57,199 bases of DNA from a virus: the IMG/VR virus record IMGVR_UViG_3300030090_002105, positions 1 to 57,199 of that record; one strand, 5' to 3'. Shown here piece by piece: positions 11,718 through 40,326 of the stretch. The notes below the pieces were generated by a model that was not told the DNA's origin, made no database searches, and was given only the letters and a program-made list of their open reading frames with translations. Every line of letters starts with the position of its first letter. The first letter of the stretch is position 1. The position numbers and the translations under genes were made by a program.

Positions 11718-12062
11718 TTATTTGCTTCCGCCGCCACCACGCTGAGAACGAGCTGAAGCTGCGTTAGCCCTCATTTTTACTTTATCAGCTTTGTATTTTG
11801 CGTAAGATGTAGTTCCATGCTCTCTCATTCTTTGACCTTTGGGCATGCTATTCCAAGTAGACTCACGCATTACAGAAGAGTCCTTCTTTTTGGGACCACC
11901 TGCGCCCCCGCCTCCGGTAATTTTGCCTGCGGTATTTGATCTTGCTCCTCTAGACCTTGTTCCTAGTGATGCTGATCTAGCACCTGCACCACTTCTTGCT
12001 CCTGCTGCTTTGTTTCCACCCCTGTTTCCTGGACTTCCAGGAGGTCCTGATCCATATGCCAT
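11718..12062 (-). CDS. first late gene: Gly/Arg/Ser-rich basic protein
   Basis: 114 residues. Residues 1-55 are low-complexity Gly/Ala/Arg/Ser (GARSGAGARSASLGTRSRGA), then KKKDSSVMRESTWNSMPKGQ and a basic C terminus ending in a Gly run. It is the promoter-proximal gene of the leftward operon. The Arg/Gly-rich part is reminiscent of RNA- or DNA-binding RGG-like tails. Function unknown; the strong charge fits the family of basic late proteins in this genome. Confidence 0.6.
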   Translation of the reverse strand: MAYGSGPPGSPGNRGGNKAAGARSGAGARSASLGTRSRGARSNTAGKITGGGGAGGPKKKDSSVMRESTWNSMPKGQRMREHGTTSYAKYKADKVKMRANAASARSQRGGGGSK

Positions 12063-12086
12063 TTTAATTCTCCATAGTTGTAAAGT

Positions 12087-12153
12087 GGGGCCGTGTCAGC
12101 AGAAAGGGAGAAGAACCCTCTATCGAGGGGAGAGATGTGCCGACACGTGCCCC
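12087..12153 (-). ncRNA. structured 5' leader of the late operon
   Basis: On the minus strand the transcript would begin a few bases before a long stem: GGGGCACGTGTC (12153 to 12142) pairs with GACACGGCCCC (12097 to 12087), 11 pairs with one bulged base. Inside is a hairpin CCCTC-GATA-GAGGG (12129 to 12116) closed by a GNRA-type loop, leaving pyrimidine-rich strands on both sides. It lies 25 bases upstream of the first late start codon and just downstream of a promoter. It may be an mRNA-stabilising leader, cis-regulator or packaging signal; no known class recognised. Confidence 0.6.
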
Positions 12154-12167
12154 GAATATTTACTAAT

Positions 12168-12178
12168 ATTATACCATA
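12168..12178 (-). promoter_or_regulatory. late promoter, extended -10 TATGGTATAAT
   Basis: Minus-strand TATGGTATAAT (TGn extended -10, perfect TATAAT) with a weak -35. The expected start is about 12160, just before the structured leader. The identical 11-mer occurs on the plus strand at 21735 and 25478 ahead of early genes. Confidence 0.6.
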
Positions 12179-12279
12179 TTGGGGGGTTCTCGTGTCGCAC
12201 TTTTTAAATAGATCAATCATTTAGCATATATTTTAGCATTCTTACACAATATTTTGCTAAATGGAACCAGGTATAGGTA

Positions 12280-12447
12280 CAGGTATAGATAAATATATAT
12301 TAATATTATATATATATTATATATTATATAGAAGTATTAATATATATATTATAATAAGGGACCACCTTACCTGTGGATAACTTTCCAATTCTCCTTTATA
12401 ATCATAGATTTAACCTAATATTTACCTGTGGATAAGTATGTGGATAA
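12280..12447. other. putative replication origin: AT-rich element and three DnaA boxes
   Basis: A nearly pure A/T stretch (about 12283-12357) is followed by three perfect DnaA-box sequences TGTGGATAA (reverse complement of TTATCCACA) at 12372-12380, 12427-12435 and 12439-12447, all in one orientation. The first two lie in a 14-bp direct repeat TTACCTGTGGATAA (12367 and 12422). The layout of an unwinding element beside DnaA boxes matches bacterial and plasmid origins. It lies at the divergence of early and late operons. The genome encodes a primase-helicase but no visible DNA polymerase or initiator, so host DnaA could recruit the host replisome (inference). Confidence 0.65.
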
Positions 12448-12480
12448 CTTGTGTATAAAAATATACCCCCCAAAAAATTT

Positions 12481-12512
12481 TGGGACCCCTATTTTCTGAA
12501 TGGGACCCCTAT
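12481..12512. repeat. direct repeat TGGGACCCCTAT x2, 20-bp period
   Basis: Two exact 12-bp copies at 12481-12492 and 12501-12512, two helical turns apart, next to the DnaA boxes. The spacing suits paired binding of one protein on the same DNA face (iteron or operator). Confidence 0.6.
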
Positions 12513-12890
12513 ATTTCGCCGCTAAGCCAACGGCTATTCCATTCCACATATACCAAAACACCCTATACAGAGATACACATACCATATACCACGTATACAG
12601 ATACCAAACTCTTAGTAAAACGCTAATGTGTTGTTAGTGTCGTTTTTTTATTTATATATATGCGGGTGCGGATCAGGATTCCCAGTCCTGGATCGCCCCG
12701 GTCGGCCCCTCGGAGTACCTTCGAATATTAGAATATTCTAATTTTCTACACCCTTCTCGCCCAGTATAAGTATATTAGTGGTTTCTTATTGAGCAGAAAA
12801 GTTGGGAGGACTTGCATTTTCTGGTGGTTGTGCTAAAGTGTAGTCACTGGCTGAGGCGACGGGCTGAAGCCACAATAAGGAGTCGCGCTT
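12513..12890 (+). promoter_or_regulatory. non-coding early control region
   Basis: No credible gene. It contains a possible promoter TTGTTA (about 12632) and TATATA (about 12656), repeated ATACC/GTATAC motifs (12548-12607), an imperfect hairpin around GGATTCCCAGTCC (12670-12693), a GAATATT-rich inverted motif near 12723-12742 and a second possible -10 (TATAAG, about 12767). The TGGCT/AGCCA pair and AAGGAG before 12891 would lie in the first early leader. Promoter calls are weak. Confidence 0.4.
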
Positions 12891-13163
12891 ATGTTTATTA
12901 CCATGAGCGACGGGACTCGCTACGAAGTACCGGCAGAATGTCAGGTCTTTCGGAGTGCTGACGGCGGTAAGATCGGCACCCCAGCGATTCGACAGATTGC
13001 AGGGACTAAGGCAGAGAAGCAGGTATGCAAGGCGAAACGCGACACGCGAAAGCCTAGCCACAGACTGCCTCGCCTTCAAGAAAGCGAGATGAACCGTCGA
13101 ATTAGGATTTGGCAGAAAACGGGTCGCAAAAAAGGCGACGGGTACGCCAGGAAGACTGGTTGA
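12891..13163 (+). CDS. first early gene, small basic protein
   Basis: 90 residues. AAGGAG lies 9 bases ahead of the ATG, a strong site. N terminus MFITMSDGTRYEVPAECQVF is probably a small beta-hairpin; the C-terminal half is basic (KAKRDTRKPSHR, RRIRIWQKTGRKKGDG). No domain recognised. As the first gene after the control region it could be a host-takeover or regulatory protein (inference). Its DNA is visibly more GC-rich than the later early genes, like the structured regions following it. Confidence 0.6.
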   Translation: MFITMSDGTRYEVPAECQVFRSADGGKIGTPAIRQIAGTKAEKQVCKAKRDTRKPSHRLPRLQESEMNRRIRIWQKTGRKKGDGYARKTG

Positions 13164-13166
13164 CAG

Positions 13167-13717
13167 TAGAGGGTGCTGTATGACCCTCTAGTCTCAAAGA
13201 GTCTAGTCCGGCCTAGCGGACGCTAAAGAATGTCTAGGAGTCAATTTGTACCGTAAACCGATGTGTATCGGTTATGGAATGGTACGCCTTAGCGGGAGAC
13301 TGTGGGCTCGCCCTTAAAGCCAGTCAGTATGATGAGTGATCCGTTGCCGGGTCTAACGCAGTCGCGAGGATTTAGAAGTACCTCATAACGAAGTCTAGGC
13401 GATGGCATACCGTGAAGTAACCGAGCGAGGAATCGTTGCATTGTGTGTCGATAGGTCATAGCCTGTTGGGAATATTCAGCCCTAGCGCGTTGCGATGGGG
13501 GGTTGATGACGACTTCGGGAAGCGGGGTGGTGAGCCCTGCGATGTCAGAAGGTCTATTGGTGGGTGAGGGAAAAGCGAGCAAATGCCCGTGAACCATTCT
13601 TAGGACACCAGCATATCATGGCGGGTCAGCGACTTTGGGCGGGGAATCCTGGTCATGTAGAGCGCGATAGGGGAGACTGTTTGAGGGATTACATCCGTAG
13701 TCCGCAATCTCAAACAG
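13167..13717 (+). ncRNA. gene-free structured region 1 (candidate large RNA or long 5' leader)
   Basis: Some 550 bases without a credible gene but with many strong hairpins: TAGAGGGT/ACCCTCTA around an 8-base loop GCTGTATG (13167-13190), GTCCG/CGGAC (13206-13221), GTACC/GGTAC (13248-13285) enclosing AACCGAT-GTGT-ATCGGTT (13256-13273), and a 9-bp CTGTTTGAG/CTCAAACAG stem (13677-13717) just ahead of the next ribosome site. GC-rich compared with surroundings. It could be a stand-alone RNA or the leader of the 13731 gene. GOLLD and ROOL are phage RNAs of this size; membership untested. Confidence 0.55.
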
Positions 13718-13730
13718 AGGAACTGTAACG

Positions 13731-14291
13731 ATGGAAATCATCAAAGATGGCAAGACTCTCGCTACGGCGATCAAACGTGCTGTAAAAGCGATCATGACTA
13801 TGCAGGATCGTGTGCATGAGTTAGCAGTTAGCGCGATGTATCACTACTGGCTTCACGGCGATAGCACGTATCTGACCAATCTTGGGTCTGGTATCACCAA
13901 ATGCAATGGTGTAAACAAGCAGAAGTTTATCGGGTATGTTTCCGAGACTTGTGGCCTTAACTGGGACGTTAAGAACAATCGCTTCAAGAAGGCGAAGAAT
14001 TCTACGTTCACTAAGGATAGCGGTCAGGAGATTTTTCCGCTTCCAAGACTTGAGGCTCAGCGTTGGTATGAGTTTGAGTTAGACACTGAGATGCCTTCAT
14101 GGATGCTCAAGAGGGCGCTTAGGCAGTTGAATACTCAGATAGCCAGTCATAGCGATGAGGCTAAGAGTCAGATTGAGGATGCCTATGACGAGTTTGTAGC
14201 ACTAGAATCCACCATGAAAGAGGTGGGTCTTGGTGTAAGTCAGGAATCTTTCTCTGACGATACTCCAGAGTGGTTGCACCGAGCAGCCTAA
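13731..14291 (+). CDS. hypothetical protein between two structured RNA regions
   Basis: 186 residues. Site GAGGAACTGTAA at 13717-13728 precedes the ATG. The N-terminal 45 residues are helical (TAIKRAVKAIMTMQDRVHEL). The middle has a basic segment (WDVKNNRFKKAKNSTF) and FPLPRLEAQRWYEF; the C terminus is acidic and helical. No domain recognised, no membrane segment. Flanked on both sides by several hundred bases of foldable, gene-free sequence, so it may bind or act with that RNA (inference from position only). Confidence 0.65.
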   Translation: MEIIKDGKTLATAIKRAVKAIMTMQDRVHELAVSAMYHYWLHGDSTYLTNLGSGITKCNGVNKQKFIGYVSETCGLNWDVKNNRFKKAKNSTFTKDSGQEIFPLPRLEAQRWYEFELDTEMPSWMLKRALRQLNTQIASHSDEAKSQIEDAYDEFVALESTMKEVGLGVSQESFSDDTPEWLHRAA

Positions 14292-14296
14292 GTTGC

Positions 14297-15004
14297 GGGT
14301 TACCCTAGCGATAGGGTAATCCCTCAAGCAGTCAACTACAAGTGATACCTCTGAGACCTTCCGGAGGGCCAGTAGATAGGGCATCTAATGCCGGGTATCA
14401 CCAGTCCTGGGCATGACTGTGATGGGGTATACCATCTAAAAAGGCCCACTAATTTCGTCCTGAGTATGACTAGAGTTAAACTGCTCCGCCTAGGTACGGC
14501 GATAAACTGCCAACTACCCAGATGCTTGTAGAACCGTGGGTGAAGGGTCGATTTACCCGTCAGATGTGCAACGGTTCACCGAATTCCTAAGTCCTGAGTA
14601 TGACTTCATCCTGGTAAACTGCTCACTCAGTGCGTACCAGTAAACACTATGCCAGGGGTATTGGGTAGTAGATTCCCCCACTTCTGGTGACCGTCGAGCC
14701 TGTAATCGTCGGGGTTCTATAATCCGAGGGATAAAAACTGAGGTAGGCCGAATGGACACGCGCTAAACTGTCCTGAGTATGACAGGCATTTAGATCGGGG
14801 TTGCAGATGGTACATATCGCTGGCACTACGGTCGGCAACATAATGACAGGCCATCCCTAGTCGACGGCTCACGATAAATGCAAAACTGCTCACCTGGGGT
14901 ATTGCGGGGAGGGCTGGGTGAGTGAGTAACCTAGCCTACCTAGTAGGGTGGTATAGGGTCATGTCTTAACGGCTCTCAGAGAGGCTTACAGAGCGTCTCA
15001 GGGG
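14297..15004 (+). ncRNA. candidate novel large structured RNA with repeated CTGAGTAT hairpins
   Basis: About 700 gene-free bases. Four hairpins share an 8-base loop (CTGAGTAT at 14460, 14594 and 14773; CTGGGCAT at 14407) while their stems differ and still pair: CAGTC/GACTG, GTC/GAC, AAGTC/GACTT, CTGTC/GACAG. AAACTGCTC recurs at 14478, 14616 and 14883, and GGGGTATTG at 14655 and 14896. Other stems: TTACCCTA-GCGA-TAGGGTAA with a GNRA loop (about 14300-14319), GTGATACC/GGTATCAC (14342/14394) enclosing GGCAT-CTA-ATGCC, GATGG/CCATC (14421-14436), GAACCGT/ACGGTTC (14531/14571) enclosing GGGT/ACCC, and CTGGTA/TACCAG (14611/14635). Compensating stem changes strongly favour an RNA. Class unknown. Confidence 0.7.
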
Positions 15005-15025
15005 CATAAAATCAGGAGGAACAGT

Positions 15026-15118
15026 ATGTTTGTAGATATTGTGTTGTTCTTGGCCTACTTTGTGGGCTTTGGTGCATTGGTCTTTGGTCAGTATAAACTT
15101 ATGAAACTGTGGAGATAA
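15026..15118 (+). CDS. 30-residue membrane peptide
   Basis: MFVDIVLFLAYFVGFGALVF followed by a short basic tail ending KLMKLWR: one transmembrane helix with a cytoplasmic positive end. AGGAGGAAC at 15014-15022 is a strong ribosome site four bases from the ATG. It directly follows the structured RNA and overlaps the next gene's first possible ATG. Single-helix phage peptides often modulate host membrane proteins; function here unknown. Confidence 0.6.
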   Translation: MFVDIVLFLAYFVGFGALVFGQYKLMKLWR

Positions 15119-30974: not shown

Positions 30975-31235
30975 TTATGTTGTTTCTTTAAAATCTTTTA
31001 TTAGCCCCCCTGTAACAAGGGGGGTTATTTTTTTTACACAACCATTCGGTATTACAGTAATACCAAACCACTCATTATCCTCATCCTTTGTTGTTGCTAT
31101 ACGCACCTCTTCATCATCATGATTAATAAGGTATCCGTATGACCAAAACACTGGCATCTTAGTTTCCTCTGACTTTTCCCACCCAGCCGTAGAAATAATA
31201 TCCAACCACTCTACTTCTACATACTTATAAGACAT
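30975..31235 (-). CDS. hypothetical protein, 86 residues, last leftward gene
   Basis: MSYKYVEVEWLDIISTAGWE start, then VFWSYGYLINHDDEEVRIAT and GITVIPNGCVKKITPLVTGG. Beta-rich, resembling small phage proteins with W..I.SxxGW openings (recalled). It overlaps the end of the giant gene by 11 bases. Its C-terminal codons form the convergent operon's terminator hairpin, so one DNA segment serves both purposes. Function unknown. Confidence 0.6.
   Translation of the reverse strand: MSYKYVEVEWLDIISTAGWEKSEETKMPVFWSYGYLINHDDEEVRIATTKDEDNEWFGITVIPNGCVKKITPLVTGGLIKDFKETT
31003..31035 (+). terminator. intrinsic terminator of the early operon
   Basis: Stem CCCCCC/GGGGGG with loop TGTAACAA (31005-31024), extended by A-T/G-T pairs, then a run of T's to 31035 on the plus strand. 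It is oriented to stop rightward early transcription about 90 bases after the last early gene. The minus-strand reading lacks a long T run. It lies inside the 3' coding end of the minus-strand gene 30975-31235. Confidence 0.85.
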
Positions 31236-34200
31236 CTTTTACCTTTGCATAAGCATTCTGCATCTCTTGTAATTCTGTCTGAATCCTAAGAGCGTTAGCT
31301 GTATATTCAGATATTAATCTTTGTCTTTGTTCTTCGCTTATGTTAGGGTCTTTTAAAAGCTTTTTAAGTCTTGAAAAAGTTTTATTAACTTCTAAACTTT
31401 TAAAGTAAATTTTTCTTTGAGCAGTTTCGTCACTGAGCTTAGAAAAGTTAAATCCAGCCCAAGATATTAACGACTCTGGTACACTATATTTAGGAAGTCC
31501 ATCAGCATCAACATTACCATCCATAAAATCAACAGCCATCATGGTTTTAATTAACTGCCCGCCATTGCCAATAACATCACCAGATTTATTTCTAGGCATA
31601 AACATAGGAGGCATCATATAACTAAGAAGGAATGCAGTCATATCTTGGTACTGCTGCATTGGAGGGTCAGCATCATTTGTAATTTCTTGTTTAGTAAATG
31701 GATCGACATTAGTTAACATACCTATCGGAGCCCCCATCCACCCTCCAAAAAATCCTGGAGCAGCAGCAGCCTCTCCAAACTCGCCTTGATAAAGATTCTT
31801 CATCATGTTTATATGAGCTCCCCACGGCAAGAAGTATCCCATATCAAACACCCTAATCCTACCATCTTGATCTTTCCAAGGAAGTATAAGTGACGTTGCA
31901 TTCTTCTCCATGTAATCAGCAACAAGTTTTTTCATCTCTGGAATGTCATCCTCTTCAAGCTCGGAATTATTTTCAAGCAGCATTTGAGCAACTACATATG
32001 GAATAGCGGCATACTTAGCAACAGCAATAGGATGATTCTTCATATTTCTAACCATCTGAGAGGCTGCTTTAAGATTAAAAGTAATAAATGGAGAACCCAA
32101 AGGCATTGTTCTTATAACCCTTACGGCTTGAGATACATTACTATAATCAAGAAGAGCTTCGTTAGCTAGTCTTGCCGCTTCAGATTCAGACTTTCCATGA
32201 TTCTCCATAAAGTCAATCATCTTAGCTACCTTAAACATAACCTCTGTCTTCTGGTAAGTCCTACCAAATACATCCACATAATCATTAAAGAAAACTTTTG
32301 ATCTTGCCCACATACCGCTCCAGCTATCCTCTTTAGCTTTTATCTTATTAAATTGAGCATCAATATTAACAAGCTCTTCAGAGGTAAATGTGGTGCTTTC
32401 AATTCCATACTTCCTAGCAAGCTGAGCATACTTTCCATCGCTTGCGATGTCTGCAATAGCTCTACTTATTAATCCAGGTATCTTTAAAAAGTTTGTGCCA
32501 GATACATCCATCAAAACTATATTTGATATAATATTTCTTGCCTGCGTAGGAATGTTCATTGGAACTTTTGTATATTTAAATACCTTCTGCGCCTTTGCAG
32601 AATAAGCCAATGCACCGTTAAGAAATTCATTATTAGTATAAAGCTGTTCTGATCCAATCACATCATTAATAATTTCTTTTCTAACATACAGCCCACGCAT
32701 AGCTCCATAACGAGGATTGTTAGGAACTTGTTTATACTTTTTAGAATCAGCTACAATTTTATTAGCAGTTACCTTATCAATTTCTTTTTGGATTTCATTA
32801 GCAATTTTTTCGTATGAAATAGCTTTTTCGTTATTGTTTAGTCCTCTCTCCTTTGCTGCATTCCTCATTATTGCACTAACTTTTTCATTCCAAAACCCAA
32901 CAGTTCCTTCTATATTATCGTATTTAACTATTTGATTTGGAAGAACCCAGCCATTATTACCTGTATCAGCAGCCAAAAAAGAAAGGTAATTGATAGTAGC
33001 TAAATCAGCTCCCGCCATAGATACGTATCTTCCCGCCAAGAAAGCAGGGTCTTCTATTCTACCATCAACAACATCCTTTAAAAAGTTTTCATGAGCAGAC
33101 CTAACCTTTGTGTAATTCATTTGGCTAGTTCCAATACCCATAGGTATCCTGTCACCTTTCTCAAGATATTCAAAGTATACGCGAGGAAGATACTTACCCC
33201 TCCACTGAGAATACTGGTCTTGTGTAATAAGGCCAGCAGCAACTAAATCAGAACCAAGTTTTTCAATTTGTTTCTTAGCCTCAACAACTGAATCCCTAAT
33301 AGATTTTTCTTCTGATAACCTTCCTGTCCCCTTGGTTCCGCTAAGAACGGTAGGAAGTTTAGCTACATTAACTTTTCTATTTGGGAGTTTATCTGGAGAT
33401 GCATCCCTTGTTTCAAAGTATTTTATTATCTCCTTCTTTTCTTGAGGAGTAGCTTGAAATATAACATCAAATATAACTCTGCCTTGATTATGCCATTTGC
33501 CTATCTCACCTTTGGTAAGCATTCTTTGAGTCTCTAATTCATCGTATCCTTCAAGAGTCATCAAAGGTTCAACAGCTCTTTGCAAAGTTTTTATTGCTTG
33601 TGTTATTTTTCCTTGCGCTTTTCTTGTGTTAAATCCCTGCTCCTTAGATGCATCATTAATCTTCTTCATTATTGGAAGATTTTTAGATGGACTTTCTGAT
33701 GCAATCCTAGCATCCTTTATAGCATTTACACCAGAAGTAAATGTAAATGAACTAGAAGCTTTAAACTGATCTTCAGACAAAAGAATGTAACTTAAATTTC
33801 CAGGGTCTTCAGATTTATTTACATATTGTATTGAATCATAACCTAAAGATTTTAACGCATCCCTATACTCTGAAGAAAACTTAACAAATCCGTCATAAAT
33901 TTCTCTTGAACCTGTAAATGGTTCAAGCTTTTGAGTCCATTCATTTGCTACAGAAAACAATACTTTATAATCTTTATCAGAGATATTGCCATCTCTCATC
34001 ATTTTGTTTAGTTCGTTTCTCCAAGCTTTCGGACCAGCCCAATGCCCAATGTCATCAACTCCTGTAAATGGATTAGTTACTTTAATGTATCCTTCTGTAA
34101 GCTTTTCTGATTTACCATCTACTATTTTAAGAGCTGCCTTCATTGTTCCAACATGAAGCCCCATCTCTGTAAACTCTAATATGGGTGCTGACCAGTTTTT

Positions 34201-37200
34201 TTCTGATCCATGATAAACTGTACCCTTAACCAATGAATCCTCAATGAATTCATTCCTTGCTTTTGTTTGAGCATCTGCAAGATATCCATCAGCTGCTGAT
34301 AAGTATTGCTTCGGCTCTATATATTTTTCGACAACGTCATCTATGGCTTTTTCTCTTGAGGCATCAAACATCTTCGCCCTTTGAATTAAAGTAGGCATTC
34401 TTTCAATGACTACACCAGCCATAGTATTAAAGATATCATCAACAGTTACGTCTGGTATACTATCAACATCATAGGCTTTAAATATTCTTATAAAGAATTT
34501 TTTAAATGCATCTTTAACCCTCTTCATAAGAGAGGCTCTTTGAAGGTCTAGCTCTTGGCCCTTATACTCAAGCATATGAGCAAGAACTTCTTCCCAAAAT
34601 ATATTATCTTCCCCAATAACTTCTATCGGATTCTTTCCATCCTTTGTTCTAAAACCATAAATAATTTTTCCATAGCCCATAAGGTCAGCAGATACAGGCT
34701 TAGCAAAATCTTTGTATATATCTTTGTAGTTGCTAGCTACTGCATCAAAAGCAGAAAGAACATACATATCTCCCTGTTTATGAAGTCTGCGAACCTCTTT
34801 TATAATTGCAGAAAATTCATTTGAAGACAGCATACTTCTGCCAACGTGGGCCCCAATCTCATGCCATATAAGCCCTCTTATCATATCAGGCGTAACATTA
34901 TCTTTAACTATATTTTCAGGAATAAAAGTAACTGAAGCATTATGAACAAAAGCAGCTGTATCTTTAAACTCTCGTTTTGATTTATTATGTTCTGCGGCAG
35001 CTTGTTTACGACTTAATATCTTAACAAATCCTGTGCTAAACATTTCATTTGTAGCACGAACACCAAATATTTTTTTAAGCTCTTGCCTTATAGATGATGC
35101 AACCTCATCTTTAGAGAACAAAACTTCACCAGATAGGAAAGGTTCCTGTTCTACTGAATCGGAGTCTATTCGTGACTCTTTATACTCTGTAGATATAATA
35201 CCAGTGTCATCATCAACTGTGTCTATATAGGGAGAGTTGTCTTCTACTGGTTCGACATCCTTAATTATGTAGGATTTAATTGCAGCTTCAATTTCTTTTC
35301 TTGTGCCTTTTTTGTTGTAAACAAATGATGGATCGGCTTTAAGTATATTATCAGCAATCGTTCGTAACTCGCTGATTTCAAACCCACCTTGGCTTTTAGT
35401 CTTTGATATATCTTTAAGGGCCGTGTTGGTGTCCAACATTTCTGTCCAGTATTCTGGAGTTAGTTTAACAGCCCTGTTTTCTGCTGTTCTCCTAGCAGTT
35501 TCTTCAGCCTCAGCTGCTGCTTCCGCCCTGATTTCCGCATCACCATCATCCCAGGTCAGCTCTATTAAAGCACTGGGATCGTCTGTTTCAGCAAACTCCT
35601 GCTTTGCTTCACTAGCTGCAATAATAGCATCAGCCTCTTCATCGCTAGAATATTCATCAATAGGTTCTGGATATGCTCTATTAATCTTATTACCAAATAT
35701 ACCATAGTCTGATGCTACAATTCTTTCTGCTTCTTCCTGTACTTCTCCAGCAACATCTACTGGCTCAACCAATTCTGTAGGAGCAGCCTCTTCTTTGGGC
35801 GCTATGTACTTAGCATAAAGAGCATCATACAAATCCTCTTCAGTAGTATTTTCATCATATGGGATATCGTTATTCTCAGCTATCTTTTGTTTATTTTTAT
35901 CTAGAGATAGTCTAAATGAATCACCCTTTTTCCCCGTGCCTGCCAACAAAGCTCTTGTCCCTCTTCCCAAACCCTTAAGGAATTCTCCAGTATAAGTCTT
36001 TCCTTCCGGCCTTGGAACAAAGGCATTACGAGCTTTCTTTTTCTCCCTATTAGCTACAAATTCAGACATCTTATCAGCATAAAGAACAGCATCTTGCTTG
36101 TTAGGTTCTCTCCTTATAACAGTACCTTCAGACTCAACTATAAAACTGTCAGGATTTTCTGGGTCTTCATAAACTATAGCCTCAACCCCTTGAGGATTGG
36201 GAACGCTTGACTCATACTTATCAAGCTCAATACGGGTAGTTGTTGCTTTTGGAATAACAGTTTCAAAAGTATCTTCATCAGAAACAACAGCATCATCTAC
36301 CAGTTCAGCCTGTGTCATGTCTGGGGTAACAGTAGTAGTATCAACTACTGGTGTATCAACACCCTGATCAACATCTTCTACAGTAGGACCAGTGTCATCT
36401 GTTCCTGCTTGGAATTCAGCATCAGCTTCTTGATCTGCTGTTTCCCTAGCTACAGTTGCTTGCTCTCTGGCTATCATATCAGCAATCTGTTGATCCTGAG
36501 TTTGATCTTCGTCAACATCTGTTACTGCTATGTCAGGTGGGGTGGTAGCTTTATCTCTTGGTTTATTAGCACTGCCAGACTGATCTTTATTATAATTGAC
36601 CCTTCTAAGAGGAATGATTACTTCTTCTGATCCAGTTCTAGCATCAGAAATAATAGAATCTTTACCTTTCGATTTATCAAAATCCTTAACCCTATCTCCC
36701 TTTTTGAAAAATACATCTACCTCTATTTCTCCGGTAGTTCCTAACTCTTTAGCAACCAAAGCTCTACCACGCCCCTCATGCCCAACTACCTTTAATCCAT
36801 TATCTGTAATTTCTACATCTATAAATGGAGGGGCAAAAGTTCCACCCTCTTCTGCCAAGTTACGCAAAAAATCTAAACTATCTGAACCTTCAGGCTTAGC
36901 ATCTCTAGATGGATTTAAACTAATAAACTCATCAAGCGTCATTGTAACCACAATGCCTTTAGATTCTTCATAAACTGGATAATTTCTATCAGTAGAATCT
37001 CTTTGATTTGGTACTAATCCTGCTGGTTCTTCTTTATTTTTTTCTACATCCCTTGTAAATACTACCTCACCCTGTGGGGTGGTAGCGGGTGCAGCTTCCG
37101 CGCCTTTAGCGGCGTCTGGAACTACTGTTTCTTGTGCTGCTGCAAATGATTCCTCGTCATAAGGTAATCCCTGCTCTTGCAACTCAACAGGACTAAACCC

Positions 37201-40200
37201 TAGCTCACCCATGTCTTCCATGTATGCATCGAAGTCAGGGTATATTGTTAAGTCTAGTGTACCCGGTATTTTTCCAGTTTCTGTTGCGTCTGGTGCAGTC
37301 TCAGTGGGAGTATCTGGTACGGGAGGGGTAGCATCTGCTTGTGTAGGAGTCTTGTTACCGTATGGATTCATGGTGGTTCCAGGAACTGTAACCGGATCAA
37401 CACCTGCCTCAAGAGCTTCAATATTTTTCTTAGCTTGGTCTCTTTTTCTTATCCATCCAGGCAAAGGATTACGTGGGTTTGAATCATCATATATTCTTCT
37501 CGATTCTAAATCAATTCCCCTCTCCCTTAGACCTCTCTCCATCTGATTTATTCTTAGCTCCATCTCCTCTAGCAAAAGCTTTTCATGCTCAAGATTTTTT
37601 CCCTCAATCAATTCTGATAGTTCTGGAGAGTCAGTCTCTAAAGCATCATCAATTGCCTCTCGCTTTTTTTCAAGCTCTTTGATACGTTTATTCTCTTCAA
37701 GAATAATAGGGTCTGGGTCTTTGATTACTACATTTGAAATATCAGGAACTTTTGCTTGTGTAGTGGGTGCTTCTTCAGGGGCGGGAGGAGTAGCGTCTGC
37801 TTGGTTAGGATCAGGCGCTGCTTCAGGTGGAGCGTCAGGGGTAGTGGCAGCTTTATCAGGAGCAGCATCCTTTTGAGTAGTCTGATCCCCTTCAGGTTTA
37901 AGGGTAGGTAGGCCTCTTTCTTTAAGAATAGCATTAGCCTTTTCAAGTGGGACCGCTTTCCTATAAGCGTTGGCAGCAGCTGTGCCTCCTATGCGAGAAT
38001 TTTTTATTCGTGCTATTTCACTCTGCCTTCTAGAAGCAAATTCTTGAGCGCTTATTTGCCCATAGAAAAATGCATCATATGTTTCGCCAGCCATCTCTAT
38101 AGCTTGTTCTTTAAGCTCAGCAGCCTGTTCTTTTTCAAGCTTCTTACGCTCATCAATCCTTCTTTGAGCCTCAAAGTTTAATCTAGCTTCTCTATCCTGT
38201 CTTTGTTTTGCTGCCTCCCTCTGAGCCTGTAATCTAGCTGCTCGTGAAGAGTATACCCTTCTCCTTGTTGCCCCACCTTCCCTGAGAACCCTTGTCCTAG
38301 CTTCTTCACCAGCTATAGAGGCTTGACCATGATCACCACCAGTCTCTAAAACAACTTCATTGTATGCTTCGTTATAAGCTGTTGATGCCTCATCTTCTAA
38401 CTCTCTACTTGCCTTAGCAAACTTAGCTTCTTCAATATCTGCGGCAGTAATAAGAACATCACCATCAACCAAAACATTCTCGCCATCACCAATAACTGTA
38501 TTGATAACAGGTCTGTTCATTACTTGAGGGCCTTTATCTCTAGCCTTTATTTCTTCTCTTAGCGCAGCAAAACTTCTACGAGGCCTACCCTGTGGGCCAG
38601 CACCGGTTTGATCTGGCGCTGAATCTAATACAACAGAGGGGTCTGCAAAAACTTCTGGTTTAATTGTATCCTGAATAACGGAAGGGTCTTGAGATGGAGA
38701 TCCAAATATTGGAACATCAATATCAGCAGGACCTCCAGTTACAGGAGTAATCACCCTTCCTGCAGAATCTCTTTGTCCTTCGCCTGATTGAGTTCCTCGG
38801 TCTGCTCTATCTTTTATTATAGGCAAGGAGCCTGATTGAGTACCGGAACCAGGAAAGCCTGGTTCTTCTCTAGGGTTAAGAACAGGGCCTCCACCTCGCT
38901 GTACATTAGGATCAACTGTTGTTGGAAGAGTTGGTTCTACTCTTCCTTGTGTTCCTATCGGCGCAACTGGAGTGTCAGGCATTACATCAGCCTGTGTTGG
39001 GCCTGACGGTTCTTGAGCTAGTCGAGCCTCAATCTGTTCTTGAGTTGCAGATGGACCCCTTTGTGTTCCTACTGGAAGAACTTCATCTGGTTGCTGTTGT
39101 CGCTCAGCTTCTGCTGTGCGTGGGTCTTCAGCCATTATCTGGGCTAAAGTTTTTTCTTCTTCTGGTACGGCTTCTGCTTCTGCTTCAGCTTCTTGTTCTT
39201 TTATAGGAACAATTTTATTTATAGCTGCTTCAGAATCAGCTCCCCATATCTTAGCTTTCTTTTTATTTGCTTCTACTCTTAGCTCAGATATTTCTTTTCT
39301 AATATCATTAGATCTTTTTTGAATTTTAAAATCTCTTGGTTGCTCAGCAAGACTTGTTCTTTCTGCCTCAAGTTCTGCAATTTTTAATTCAAGTTCAGAA
39401 TCAACTTGAGCAACAGCCTCTTCCTTTCGGCCAATAATTTTACGAGCAGAGCTTCTGCCGAATCCTGATGTTGATGCGCCAGCGCCAAATCCTAAGAATC
39501 CACCAGCCCAAGCAGCTTCTTGAAATTGAGCAATTTGTTCTTCTGAAAAATCAAACGGGTCTTTACCTTCTTGAGCATTAATAGTAGCAGCCTGAAGAAC
39601 TTCTTGCATACCTTCAGTTCCGGCTTCAGTGAAACTGCTCTGAAGACCAACTTTTACCGCTCTACTCCACCACTTATTTTTTGCTAAGTTCTTTGCTGCT
39701 GCTGCTTTAACTTTTTCCCTTATTGATCTATTTACAAATGCTCCACCAATCTTTCCTGGAACAGCTGCGTCAAGCCCTGCCATAAGAAGAGAGGCTCCAA
39801 GAACAAGACCTTTGTCTACATTTTCCTTGCCTACTGCGTCAACAGATTCTGCAAATGTATCTCCTGCATTCAAAGCAAATGATGCAATACCAGCTCCAGA
39901 TAAAGCTGCTAGAGTTCCGCCACCGGTTAAGGCTGTTGCTCCAGCAGCAGCAAGCGCTGATGTAATCAAAGTTGCGCCATCAATAACCAACAAATCTAGA
40001 AAATATTTAGATAAATCATTCCCTTTCTCACGAGCTTTTTCAAATGTTAATCTATCATACTGCTCTAACTGTGCTTTGTTCTTAGCTCTTACAGCTCCCC
40101 AATAAGCTGAAAGATTATCAAAGCCTGCCCCTTCAGATAAAAACTCTAAAGAAGCTCCAAGAAGGTACTGCATTTGATCAGCCGAAGCACCAAATCTACC

Positions 40201-40326
40201 AGGCTCTTCTTCTACTGGTTGATCTACACTTTGATTAGATATAAACGCCGAACCAAATGGTCCTGACCGAGCTCTACCAATAAGGCCTTGTGTATTATTA
40301 TTTACAACATCTGAATTTGATGCCAT
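31225..40326 (-). CDS. giant polyvalent virion/ejection protein (3,033 residues)
   Basis: 3,033 residues. Residues ~110-160 form a Gly/Ala-rich hydrophobic segment; 280-1,100 are low-complexity, charged and coiled-coil (Lys/Glu/Gln-rich). Near 1,181 GHEGRGRA recalls a ParB/sulfiredoxin-like core; HEIGAH (1822-1827) is an HExxH zinc-protease motif; YHG (2038-2040) in VYHGSEKNW fits an ADP-ribosyltransferase-like fold; the last ~800 residues contain LLDYSNVSQAVRVIRTM and PFITFNLKAASQMVR of the LPD38 large-polyvalent-protein domain type. Such proteins are injected with DNA and act on the host. Placed at the end of the head/internal protein operon. Multidomain reading is by motif; only HExxH and LPD38-type regions are reasonably firm. 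Confidence 0.75.
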   Translation of the reverse strand: MASNSDVVNNNTQGLIGRARSGPFGSAFISNQSVDQPVEEEPGRFGASADQMQYLLGASLEFLSEGAGFDNLSAYWGAVRAKNKAQLEQYDRLTFEKAREKGNDLSKYFLDLLVIDGATLITSALAAAGATALTGGGTLAALSGAGIASFALNAGDTFAESVDAVGKENVDKGLVLGASLLMAGLDAAVPGKIGGAFVNRSIREKVKAAAAKNLAKNKWWSRAVKVGLQSSFTEAGTEGMQEVLQAATINAQEGKDPFDFSEEQIAQFQEAAWAGGFLGFGAGASTSGFGRSSARKIIGRKEEAVAQVDSELELKIAELEAERTSLAEQPRDFKIQKRSNDIRKEISELRVEANKKKAKIWGADSEAAINKIVPIKEQEAEAEAEAVPEEEKTLAQIMAEDPRTAEAERQQQPDEVLPVGTQRGPSATQEQIEARLAQEPSGPTQADVMPDTPVAPIGTQGRVEPTLPTTVDPNVQRGGGPVLNPREEPGFPGSGTQSGSLPIIKDRADRGTQSGEGQRDSAGRVITPVTGGPADIDVPIFGSPSQDPSVIQDTIKPEVFADPSVVLDSAPDQTGAGPQGRPRRSFAALREEIKARDKGPQVMNRPVINTVIGDGENVLVDGDVLITAADIEEAKFAKASRELEDEASTAYNEAYNEVVLETGGDHGQASIAGEEARTRVLREGGATRRRVYSSRAARLQAQREAAKQRQDREARLNFEAQRRIDERKKLEKEQAAELKEQAIEMAGETYDAFFYGQISAQEFASRRQSEIARIKNSRIGGTAAANAYRKAVPLEKANAILKERGLPTLKPEGDQTTQKDAAPDKAATTPDAPPEAAPDPNQADATPPAPEEAPTTQAKVPDISNVVIKDPDPIILEENKRIKELEKKREAIDDALETDSPELSELIEGKNLEHEKLLLEEMELRINQMERGLRERGIDLESRRIYDDSNPRNPLPGWIRKRDQAKKNIEALEAGVDPVTVPGTTMNPYGNKTPTQADATPPVPDTPTETAPDATETGKIPGTLDLTIYPDFDAYMEDMGELGFSPVELQEQGLPYDEESFAAAQETVVPDAAKGAEAAPATTPQGEVVFTRDVEKNKEEPAGLVPNQRDSTDRNYPVYEESKGIVVTMTLDEFISLNPSRDAKPEGSDSLDFLRNLAEEGGTFAPPFIDVEITDNGLKVVGHEGRGRALVAKELGTTGEIEVDVFFKKGDRVKDFDKSKGKDSIISDARTGSEEVIIPLRRVNYNKDQSGSANKPRDKATTPPDIAVTDVDEDQTQDQQIADMIAREQATVARETADQEADAEFQAGTDDTGPTVEDVDQGVDTPVVDTTTVTPDMTQAELVDDAVVSDEDTFETVIPKATTTRIELDKYESSVPNPQGVEAIVYEDPENPDSFIVESEGTVIRREPNKQDAVLYADKMSEFVANREKKKARNAFVPRPEGKTYTGEFLKGLGRGTRALLAGTGKKGDSFRLSLDKNKQKIAENNDIPYDENTTEEDLYDALYAKYIAPKEEAAPTELVEPVDVAGEVQEEAERIVASDYGIFGNKINRAYPEPIDEYSSDEEADAIIAASEAKQEFAETDDPSALIELTWDDGDAEIRAEAAAEAEETARRTAENRAVKLTPEYWTEMLDTNTALKDISKTKSQGGFEISELRTIADNILKADPSFVYNKKGTRKEIEAAIKSYIIKDVEPVEDNSPYIDTVDDDTGIISTEYKESRIDSDSVEQEPFLSGEVLFSKDEVASSIRQELKKIFGVRATNEMFSTGFVKILSRKQAAAEHNKSKREFKDTAAFVHNASVTFIPENIVKDNVTPDMIRGLIWHEIGAHVGRSMLSSNEFSAIIKEVRRLHKQGDMYVLSAFDAVASNYKDIYKDFAKPVSADLMGYGKIIYGFRTKDGKNPIEVIGEDNIFWEEVLAHMLEYKGQELDLQRASLMKRVKDAFKKFFIRIFKAYDVDSIPDVTVDDIFNTMAGVVIERMPTLIQRAKMFDASREKAIDDVVEKYIEPKQYLSAADGYLADAQTKARNEFIEDSLVKGTVYHGSEKNWSAPILEFTEMGLHVGTMKAALKIVDGKSEKLTEGYIKVTNPFTGVDDIGHWAGPKAWRNELNKMMRDGNISDKDYKVLFSVANEWTQKLEPFTGSREIYDGFVKFSSEYRDALKSLGYDSIQYVNKSEDPGNLSYILLSEDQFKASSSFTFTSGVNAIKDARIASESPSKNLPIMKKINDASKEQGFNTRKAQGKITQAIKTLQRAVEPLMTLEGYDELETQRMLTKGEIGKWHNQGRVIFDVIFQATPQEKKEIIKYFETRDASPDKLPNRKVNVAKLPTVLSGTKGTGRLSEEKSIRDSVVEAKKQIEKLGSDLVAAGLITQDQYSQWRGKYLPRVYFEYLEKGDRIPMGIGTSQMNYTKVRSAHENFLKDVVDGRIEDPAFLAGRYVSMAGADLATINYLSFLAADTGNNGWVLPNQIVKYDNIEGTVGFWNEKVSAIMRNAAKERGLNNNEKAISYEKIANEIQKEIDKVTANKIVADSKKYKQVPNNPRYGAMRGLYVRKEIINDVIGSEQLYTNNEFLNGALAYSAKAQKVFKYTKVPMNIPTQARNIISNIVLMDVSGTNFLKIPGLISRAIADIASDGKYAQLARKYGIESTTFTSEELVNIDAQFNKIKAKEDSWSGMWARSKVFFNDYVDVFGRTYQKTEVMFKVAKMIDFMENHGKSESEAARLANEALLDYSNVSQAVRVIRTMPLGSPFITFNLKAASQMVRNMKNHPIAVAKYAAIPYVVAQMLLENNSELEEDDIPEMKKLVADYMEKNATSLILPWKDQDGRIRVFDMGYFLPWGAHINMMKNLYQGEFGEAAAAPGFFGGWMGAPIGMLTNVDPFTKQEITNDADPPMQQYQDMTAFLLSYMMPPMFMPRNKSGDVIGNGGQLIKTMMAVDFMDGNVDADGLPKYSVPESLISWAGFNFSKLSDETAQRKIYFKSLEVNKTFSRLKKLLKDPNISEEQRQRLISEYTANALRIQTELQEMQNAYAKVKDVL

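Follow-up and report, generated by a model that had tools for sequence, protein, structure and literature searches.

What, if not a gene, occupies positions 14297–15004 of the phage contig IMGVR_UViG_3300030090_002105? The window that we analysed is the whole 57,199-nucleotide (nt) stretch of this IMG/VR record, a 57 kb contig that encodes a large terminase, a T7-like primase/helicase and a B12-type ribonucleotide reductase, and in which a GC-rich stretch without a long frame sits between the open reading frame (ORF) 13731–14291 and the following genes. An earlier reading of the letters (the sequence-only reading) had described this stretch as gene-free, richer in GC than its neighbours, and as a candidate large structured RNA built from repeated hairpins. 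The first two points are confirmed, the longest internal frames being 47 amino acids (aa) on the plus strand and 68 aa on the minus strand, with a GC content of about 50% against about 40% in the adjoining genes. The repeats, too, are all present where they had been placed: the loop CTGGGCAT at 14407–14414 and the loop CTGAGTAT at 14460–14467, 14594–14601 and 14773–14780, carried in that order by the paired stems CAGTC/GACTG, GTC/GAC, AAGTC/GACTT and CTGTC/GACAG, together with AAACTGCTC at 14478, 14616 and 14883 and two copies of GGGGTATTG. We find that the stretch is a noncoding leader RNA in which a 27-nt pseudoknot is present four times, three times in strict and once in diverged form, and that elsewhere the same pseudoknot stands alone between genes, in hundreds of phages unrelated to one another, and is also present in some bacterial chromosomes.

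Fold and covariation of the 27-nt pseudoknot

The recurrence of the unit is real, but the unit is not a simple hairpin. The loop sequence GAGYA can pair with URCUC. Loop and AAACTGCTC repeats thus make up a second helix, one strand each, which had been missed, and pairing of each CTGAGTAT loop with the AAACTGCTC copy that follows it gives an H-type pseudoknot. The consensus is NNNC-CU-GNNYA-U-GNNN-(linker)-UUAAAC-UNNNC, in which stem 1 (S1) has four base pairs (bp) and is closed by C-G, stem 2 (S2) has 5 bp and is closed by A-U, loop 1 (L1) consists of exactly two nucleotides, CU, loop 2 (L2) of a single U and, after the linker, loop 3 (L3) of UUAAAC, an A-rich loop that ends in AAAC. Loop lengths and letters are near-invariant across sites. 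The linker is just 2 nt and the element ends at S2 in 281 of 356 sites; the first nine bases 3′ of the knot are almost free of G, A28 immediately outside it is 70% conserved, and no consistent U-run of an intrinsic terminator was found on that side.

A scan of IMG/VR with GTCCTGAGTATGAC returned at least 120 contigs, with AAACT[GA]CTC after a short linker in most of the matches listed, and the repeat is thus far more abundant than chance allows. In a blind test, in which only the 3′ strand of S2 was left free while S1 and some of the 5′ S2 strand were constrained, the matching strand was present in all but one of 112 distinct sites (111; after shuffling, 55.5 on average and 70 at most); when S1 was left free, GTC/GAC, GAC/GTC, ATC/GAT, CAC/GTG, CTC/GAG, AAC/GTT and others appeared in its place. 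Selection from all fetched loci on nine fixed letters only gave 303 of 410 sites with all four pairs of S1 and all five of S2, about 31 sites in all, whatever their pairing, being expected by chance. A formal count over 131 distinct 27-mers gave 96.7% paired cells (80.4 shuffled), 189 double-change cells (45 shuffled) and a covariation score of 0.53 (0.22 shuffled), and pairing collapsed in every slid register. The covariation for the pseudoknot, in which the loop of S1 pairs with a 3′ strand and both stems covary, is decisive. One S2 pair is U-G in 55 of the 131 sequences, which points to RNA rather than DNA. The view that the compensating changes reflect structure at the RNA level is upheld. 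The stretch is also kept as noncoding RNA in two relatives, with double changes in copy 4 and its inserted helix, and the search of metagenomic phages that had been proposed for it did yield covarying homologues.

No Rfam 15 family matched the whole window in cmscan at gathering thresholds; positions 12780–15060 gave only chance-level small nucleolar RNA matches at E ≤ 5, and the locus L056 no credible hit at E ≤ 2 (labels of this form denote individual loci compared in the analysis). Twelve knot-bearing bacterial loci matched only tRNAs, away from the knot. We found no description of the pseudoknot in the openly searchable literature, supplements and subscription journals lying outside that search. 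The H-type architecture is known, and it is the family, its spread and its spacing from stop codons that appear to be new. Standard RNA-discovery pipelines have difficulty with such short pseudoknots, because each stem alone has only 4–5 bp; yet phages with this knot, cultured ones included, infect hosts of five phyla or more.

Occurrence in phages and bacteria

The hosts of the carrier phages belong to the Cyanobacteria, Proteobacteria, Firmicutes, Actinobacteria and Bacteroidetes. Its named carriers include the Synechococcus phages S-EIVl, S-RIM4, S-SM2 and S-H35, Mycobacterium phage Labelle, Paracoccus ParKuw1 and the crAss-like cr7_1. It precedes a minor-capsid gene in Lactobacillus phig1e and KC5a, stands between portal and scaffold genes in the thermophile phage D6E, and between ribonucleotide reductase and glutaredoxin in Lentibacter ICBM1. 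Cultured representatives among these are S-EIVl, S-RIM4, S-SM2, phig1e, KC5a, Labelle, ICBM1 and D6E. A phage genome may hold up to eight copies, all on the same strand, and in a small subset of contigs, which are T4-like, a late promoter ends close upstream of the knot.

In cellular genomes the knot is rare. Its GTC form was present in 20 contigs when about 85,000 species were scanned, and almost all of these contigs are labelled as metagenome-assembled genomes; some of the bacterial copies are truly chromosomal. One order of Saccharibacteria has one copy in each of 13 of 295 genomes, and those examined lie 5–7 nt (in one case 6 or 11 nt) after the stop of a small ORF; for four of them the next long ORF faces the knot from the other strand, no more than about 34 nt away. 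As bacterial copies thus follow stops, sometimes with no gene behind them, the constant partner of the knot is the upstream stop codon and not a downstream gene. The Saccharibacteria small proteins concerned (L449–L459) have about 86–129 aa; several form one family, ending in ..W[LV]E[IV]I.., and their gene is probably mobile or phage-derived. In another bacterial order 5 of 17 genomes hold one copy each, and the five loci examined there (L409, L410, L417, L420 and L448) share a stand-alone mini-gene, consisting of a promoter-like sequence, a strong Shine–Dalgarno sequence AAGGAGGTGAGG, about 20 codons whose UGA lies inside the knot, and an intrinsic terminator; its peptide is, for example, MRWMFPHATHCSTCGSIRWS, and similar peptides occur in L408 and L413 (MPRFTIPRVAHCDKGCLS and VKRFMIPRIAHCDEGCRILS). 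A bacterial metagenome-assembled genome (L404) and a viral contig (L187) encode related Cys-rich small proteins, ..CKQSFRC.EV.CP.Y.RR, with the stop 6 nt before the knot.

Position relative to stop codons

Codon-based gene calls placed 266 of 284 sites between two genes on the knot's own strand, and in only one of 289 sites is the knot contained in a sense ORF. For 208 non-redundant knots that have a gene upstream in the same orientation, the distance from the stop is most often 5 nt (52 cases), next 6 nt (19 cases) and hardly ever less, and even at sites with no recognised upstream gene nearby, stops are in excess at 5–6 nt. Lying on the coding strand and mostly 5–8 nt 3′ of a stop codon, the knot is an mRNA element that acts in cis and occurs phage-wide. 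From the knot to the next start there are usually 20–30 nt, and at one site no more than 15, so the knot would fit just beyond the reach of a ribosome at either codon, terminating or initiating. Downstream neighbours represent 84 PHROG families over 87 proteins, the largest with seven members. A riboswitch for one pathway was rejected, the upstream and downstream neighbours being too diverse, as was the use of an AUG within the knot as a start codon, which opened long frames at about the chance rate (31 of 250).

The leader RNA of the window

All four copies in the window lie on the plus strand. Pseudoknot 1 (14402–14447), the diverged copy, has S1 CAGTC 14402–14406/GACTG 14415–14419, L1 CT and S2 GGGC 14409–14412/GCCC 14444–14447, with TAAAAAG replacing TTAAAC and an inserted hairpin GATGG 14421–14425/CCATC 14432–14436. 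The relatives L427 and L428 share this variant (there with loop AAGCA, tail TAAAAAG and partner GCTT), and the evidence for this copy is weaker than for copies 2–4. Pseudoknot 2 (14457–14486) has S1 GTC/GAC, L1 CT, L2 T, a linker followed by TTAAAC, and S2 GAGTA 14462–14466/TGCTC 14482–14486; in L128 the latter is GAGTA/TACTC, with a Watson–Crick pair in place of the wobble. Pseudoknot 3 (14589–14624) has S1 AAGTC/GACTT, a 9-nt linker before AAAC and S2 GAGTA 14596–14600/TGCTC 14620–14624, and is retained in L128, L428 (with a TAAC tail) and L142. Pseudoknot 4 (14768–14891) has S1 CTGTC/GACAG and S2 GAGTA 14775–14779/TGCTC 14887–14891, and its linker holds a domain closed by the helix GCATTTA 14786–14792/TAAATGC 14875–14881. 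In L128 both S1 (CCGTC/GACGG) and the inserted helix (ACATTTA/TGAATGT) show double changes, and the insert shortens from 98 nt in the window to 65 nt; L428 agrees.

Between pseudoknots 3 and 4, the noncoding plus-strand block 14660–14767 is almost invariant in the window, L128 and L428, and the 3′ part of the RNA (14892–15010, plus strand) reaches the ribosome-binding site of the next gene. Identity over the stretch is 81–98% in L128 and 88% over part of it in L428, but L128 carries an insertion of about 295 nt and one replaced segment, and L160 and L126 retain just the 3′ domain, 14892–15010, at 86–93% identity, no strict pseudoknot having been found there. Conservation of this kind indicates a real noncoding RNA of modular build. 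The large structured RNA of the sequence-only reading thus survives as a conserved noncoding RNA, but its repeat is an autonomous module and not a building block special to a giant RNA. The fold prediction that it had suggested revealed no exceptional stability for the stretch as a whole, the nested minimum free energy of 734 nt giving an uninformative z = −0.8. Among cultured phages, no close DNA relatives of 12200–15100 were found.

Possible function

Our explanation of the knot's role is tentative and held with less than even confidence: it may act where a cistron ends, as a roadblock resistant to mechanical force. The knot would stay folded while ribosomes terminate beside it, and would halt processive machinery, namely 3′-to-5′ exonucleases and perhaps sliding post-termination ribosomes, whereby each cistron of a polycistronic phage mRNA would be stabilised or insulated; in the window, the four copies, two or three of them with extra linker helices, would stud the early-leader RNA and protect it likewise. 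We favour such a roadblock because the shape is like that of frameshift pseudoknots, which are compact and withstand mechanical force, because a ribosome at the stop leaves a knot at this site folded, and because no downstream gene is needed. Several observations speak against it. The strict conservation of the loops would fit recognition by a protein or ligand, or catalysis, equally well; in some bacteria an intrinsic terminator follows the knot directly, so that further protection of the 3′ end would seem superfluous, and the UGA of the ORF of about 20 codons is inside the knot; in T4-like contigs a late promoter that ends close upstream puts the knot near the 5′ end of a transcript, where protection of that end would fit as well; and the window copies follow no recognised ORF. 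Whatever its action, the knot is a compact RNA element with letters and spacing now defined, and a testable handle on the stabilising, insulating or terminating of phage polycistronic mRNAs.

The exact spacing peak at 5 nt, with a lower limit of about 4–5 nt, could also mean that the knot, placed at the mRNA entry site while the stop codon occupies the A site, acts on the terminating ribosome and modulates pausing, release, recycling or re-initiation at the following cistron. This spacing is close to that of frameshift-stimulating pseudoknots, and the bacterial copies with a strong Shine–Dalgarno sequence, an ORF of about 20 aa and a stop inside the knot agree with such an action. However, at about half of the sites no stop is recognised within 15 nt. 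There is no selection for readthrough, the next in-frame stop typically coming 9–30 codons on (median about 18 at sites with a 5-nt spacer), and frameshifting is improbable, since one frame meets a UGA in the knot and no slippery context was seen; an effect on the terminating ribosome seems unlikely to us. The luteovirus-type frameshift knots of beet western yellows virus (BWYV) and sugarcane yellow leaf virus (ScYLV) do share with ours a 2-nt L1 starting with C, a 1-nt L2, an A-rich L3, a size of about 27 nt and a spacing of 5–8 nt to the ribosome, but they belong to eukaryotic plant viruses; the phage knot differs in its position after stop codons and its longer S2, and gives no sign of recoding. 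The invariant CU of L1, U of L2 and AAAC, and the occurrence of several copies in one genome, with their multiplication in the leader of the window, might instead mark the binding site of a conserved host or phage protein, a translational operator or decoy comparable with gene 32/gp32 or ToxI/ToxN. We think this improbable: no flanking gene family is common across hosts, given the 84 downstream PHROG families, and no Rfam family matches, ToxI being among those searched. The gene 32 knot differs from the 27-nt knot in stem and loop lengths and in sequence. It is an H-type pseudoknot in phage mRNA, cis-acting, with a gene downstream and UUAA(A) 3′ of the knot (PMC3014915), and is perhaps the sole viral pseudoknot in translational autoregulation according to the same review, but the T4/T2 knot is bound by gp32 and belongs to a single gene, 67 nt upstream of it, whereas ours stands at the stops of unrelated genes, with single-strand-binding families making up only 2 of 87 downstream and 4 of 81 upstream neighbours. 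Antitoxins of the ToxI type (type III) are likewise small repeated pseudoknots, with one known phage mimic (PMC3475682), but here the repeats are not identical units in tandem, no toxin gene was seen and Rfam gave no match.

A minimal self-cleaving ribozyme, cutting polycistronic phage mRNAs beside their stop codons, would account for the small pseudoknotted fold and the invariant loop letters, but we regard it as very unlikely. The known natural self-cleaving RNAs are larger than 27 nt; apart from A28, no outside nucleotide is conserved as a cleavage site, and a cut would serve little purpose directly behind promoters or before terminators. The knot resembles the P1-loop pseudoknot of the pistol ribozyme, in which the loop of a stem also pairs with a downstream strand across a UUAAA stretch. 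Pistol is common near phage genes (PMC4604425), as the knot is found mainly in phages, but the knot lacks P3, a cleavage-site region and an Rfam match, and the pistol set of three stems, pseudoknot and cleavage site was not found, the 281 sites with the short linker ending at S2. On the scale of the locus, 14297–15004 could be one large ornate RNA machine acting by its global fold, with the pseudoknots as joints, as the conservation and double changes in L128 and L428 and the invariant block of about 100 nt might suggest. We give this little credence, for the knots stand alone elsewhere, the nested fold is not unusually stable, and the insertion and replaced segment of L128 and the lone 3′ domain of L160 and L126 do not fit. 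The analogy with GOLLD and ROOL that had been drawn is not supported: these and OLE are long noncoding RNAs, often phage-associated and with pseudoknots, that form homo-oligomeric RNA-only complexes (PMC12286853), but their covariance models have no match at E ≤ 5, the window is without tRNA genes and has modular repeats, and no result supports the symmetrical assembly once suggested for it. Rather doubtful, finally, is the broader proposal of a hitherto unrecognised functional RNA of tailed phages across many bacterial phyla and of a few bacteria, acting on terminating ribosomes or catalytic, that has been amplified here into a multi-knot leader.

A long-range helix around ORF 13731–14291

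The plus-strand ORF 13731–14291, of 186 aa and PHROG 1448-like (E = 6e-14), is enclosed by an 18-bp helix between the 5′ arm GACTGTTTGAGGGATTAC (13675–13692) and the 3′ arm GTAATCCCTCAAGCAGTC (14316–14333), both on the plus strand. All 13 IMG/VR relatives tested have such a helix, of 18–23 bp and with at least four unrelated arm sequences, always 33–38 nt before the start and 22–24 nt after the stop, and its scores are 42.5–51.5 against a shuffled maximum of about 33. It is also present around two highly diverged ORFs in the phage relatives L151 and L160. A local hairpin with a GNRA-type loop, GGGTTACCCTA-GCGA-TAGGGTAATCCC (14297–14323, plus strand; z = −4.5), begins 5 nt after the stop of the ORF and has a counterpart in L428, L427, L429, L435, L151 and L160; the 3′ arm of the long-range helix is partly contained in the 3′ half of this hairpin, and for the 5′ arm, too, local pairing is possible next to the ribosome-binding site, in the window (with 13709–13717) and in L428. 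Because the arms are shared, the local and long-range forms must be at least partly mutually exclusive. By analogy, the long-range helix may be likened to a processing stem of the pre-rRNA type. A group I or group II intron reading of the enclosed ORF was set aside, there being no Rfam match.

Upstream of this ORF, 13164–13674 is a second GC-rich noncoding stretch, diverged in L128 and partly kept in L136; no pseudoknot was found in it, and it is probably a structured RNA as well. The AT-rich divergent intergenic region 12060–12780, with overlapping palindromes and TTACCTGTGGATAA repeats, likely holds early promoters or an origin. Elsewhere in the window, 31225–40326 is a single minus-strand ORF of 3033 aa.
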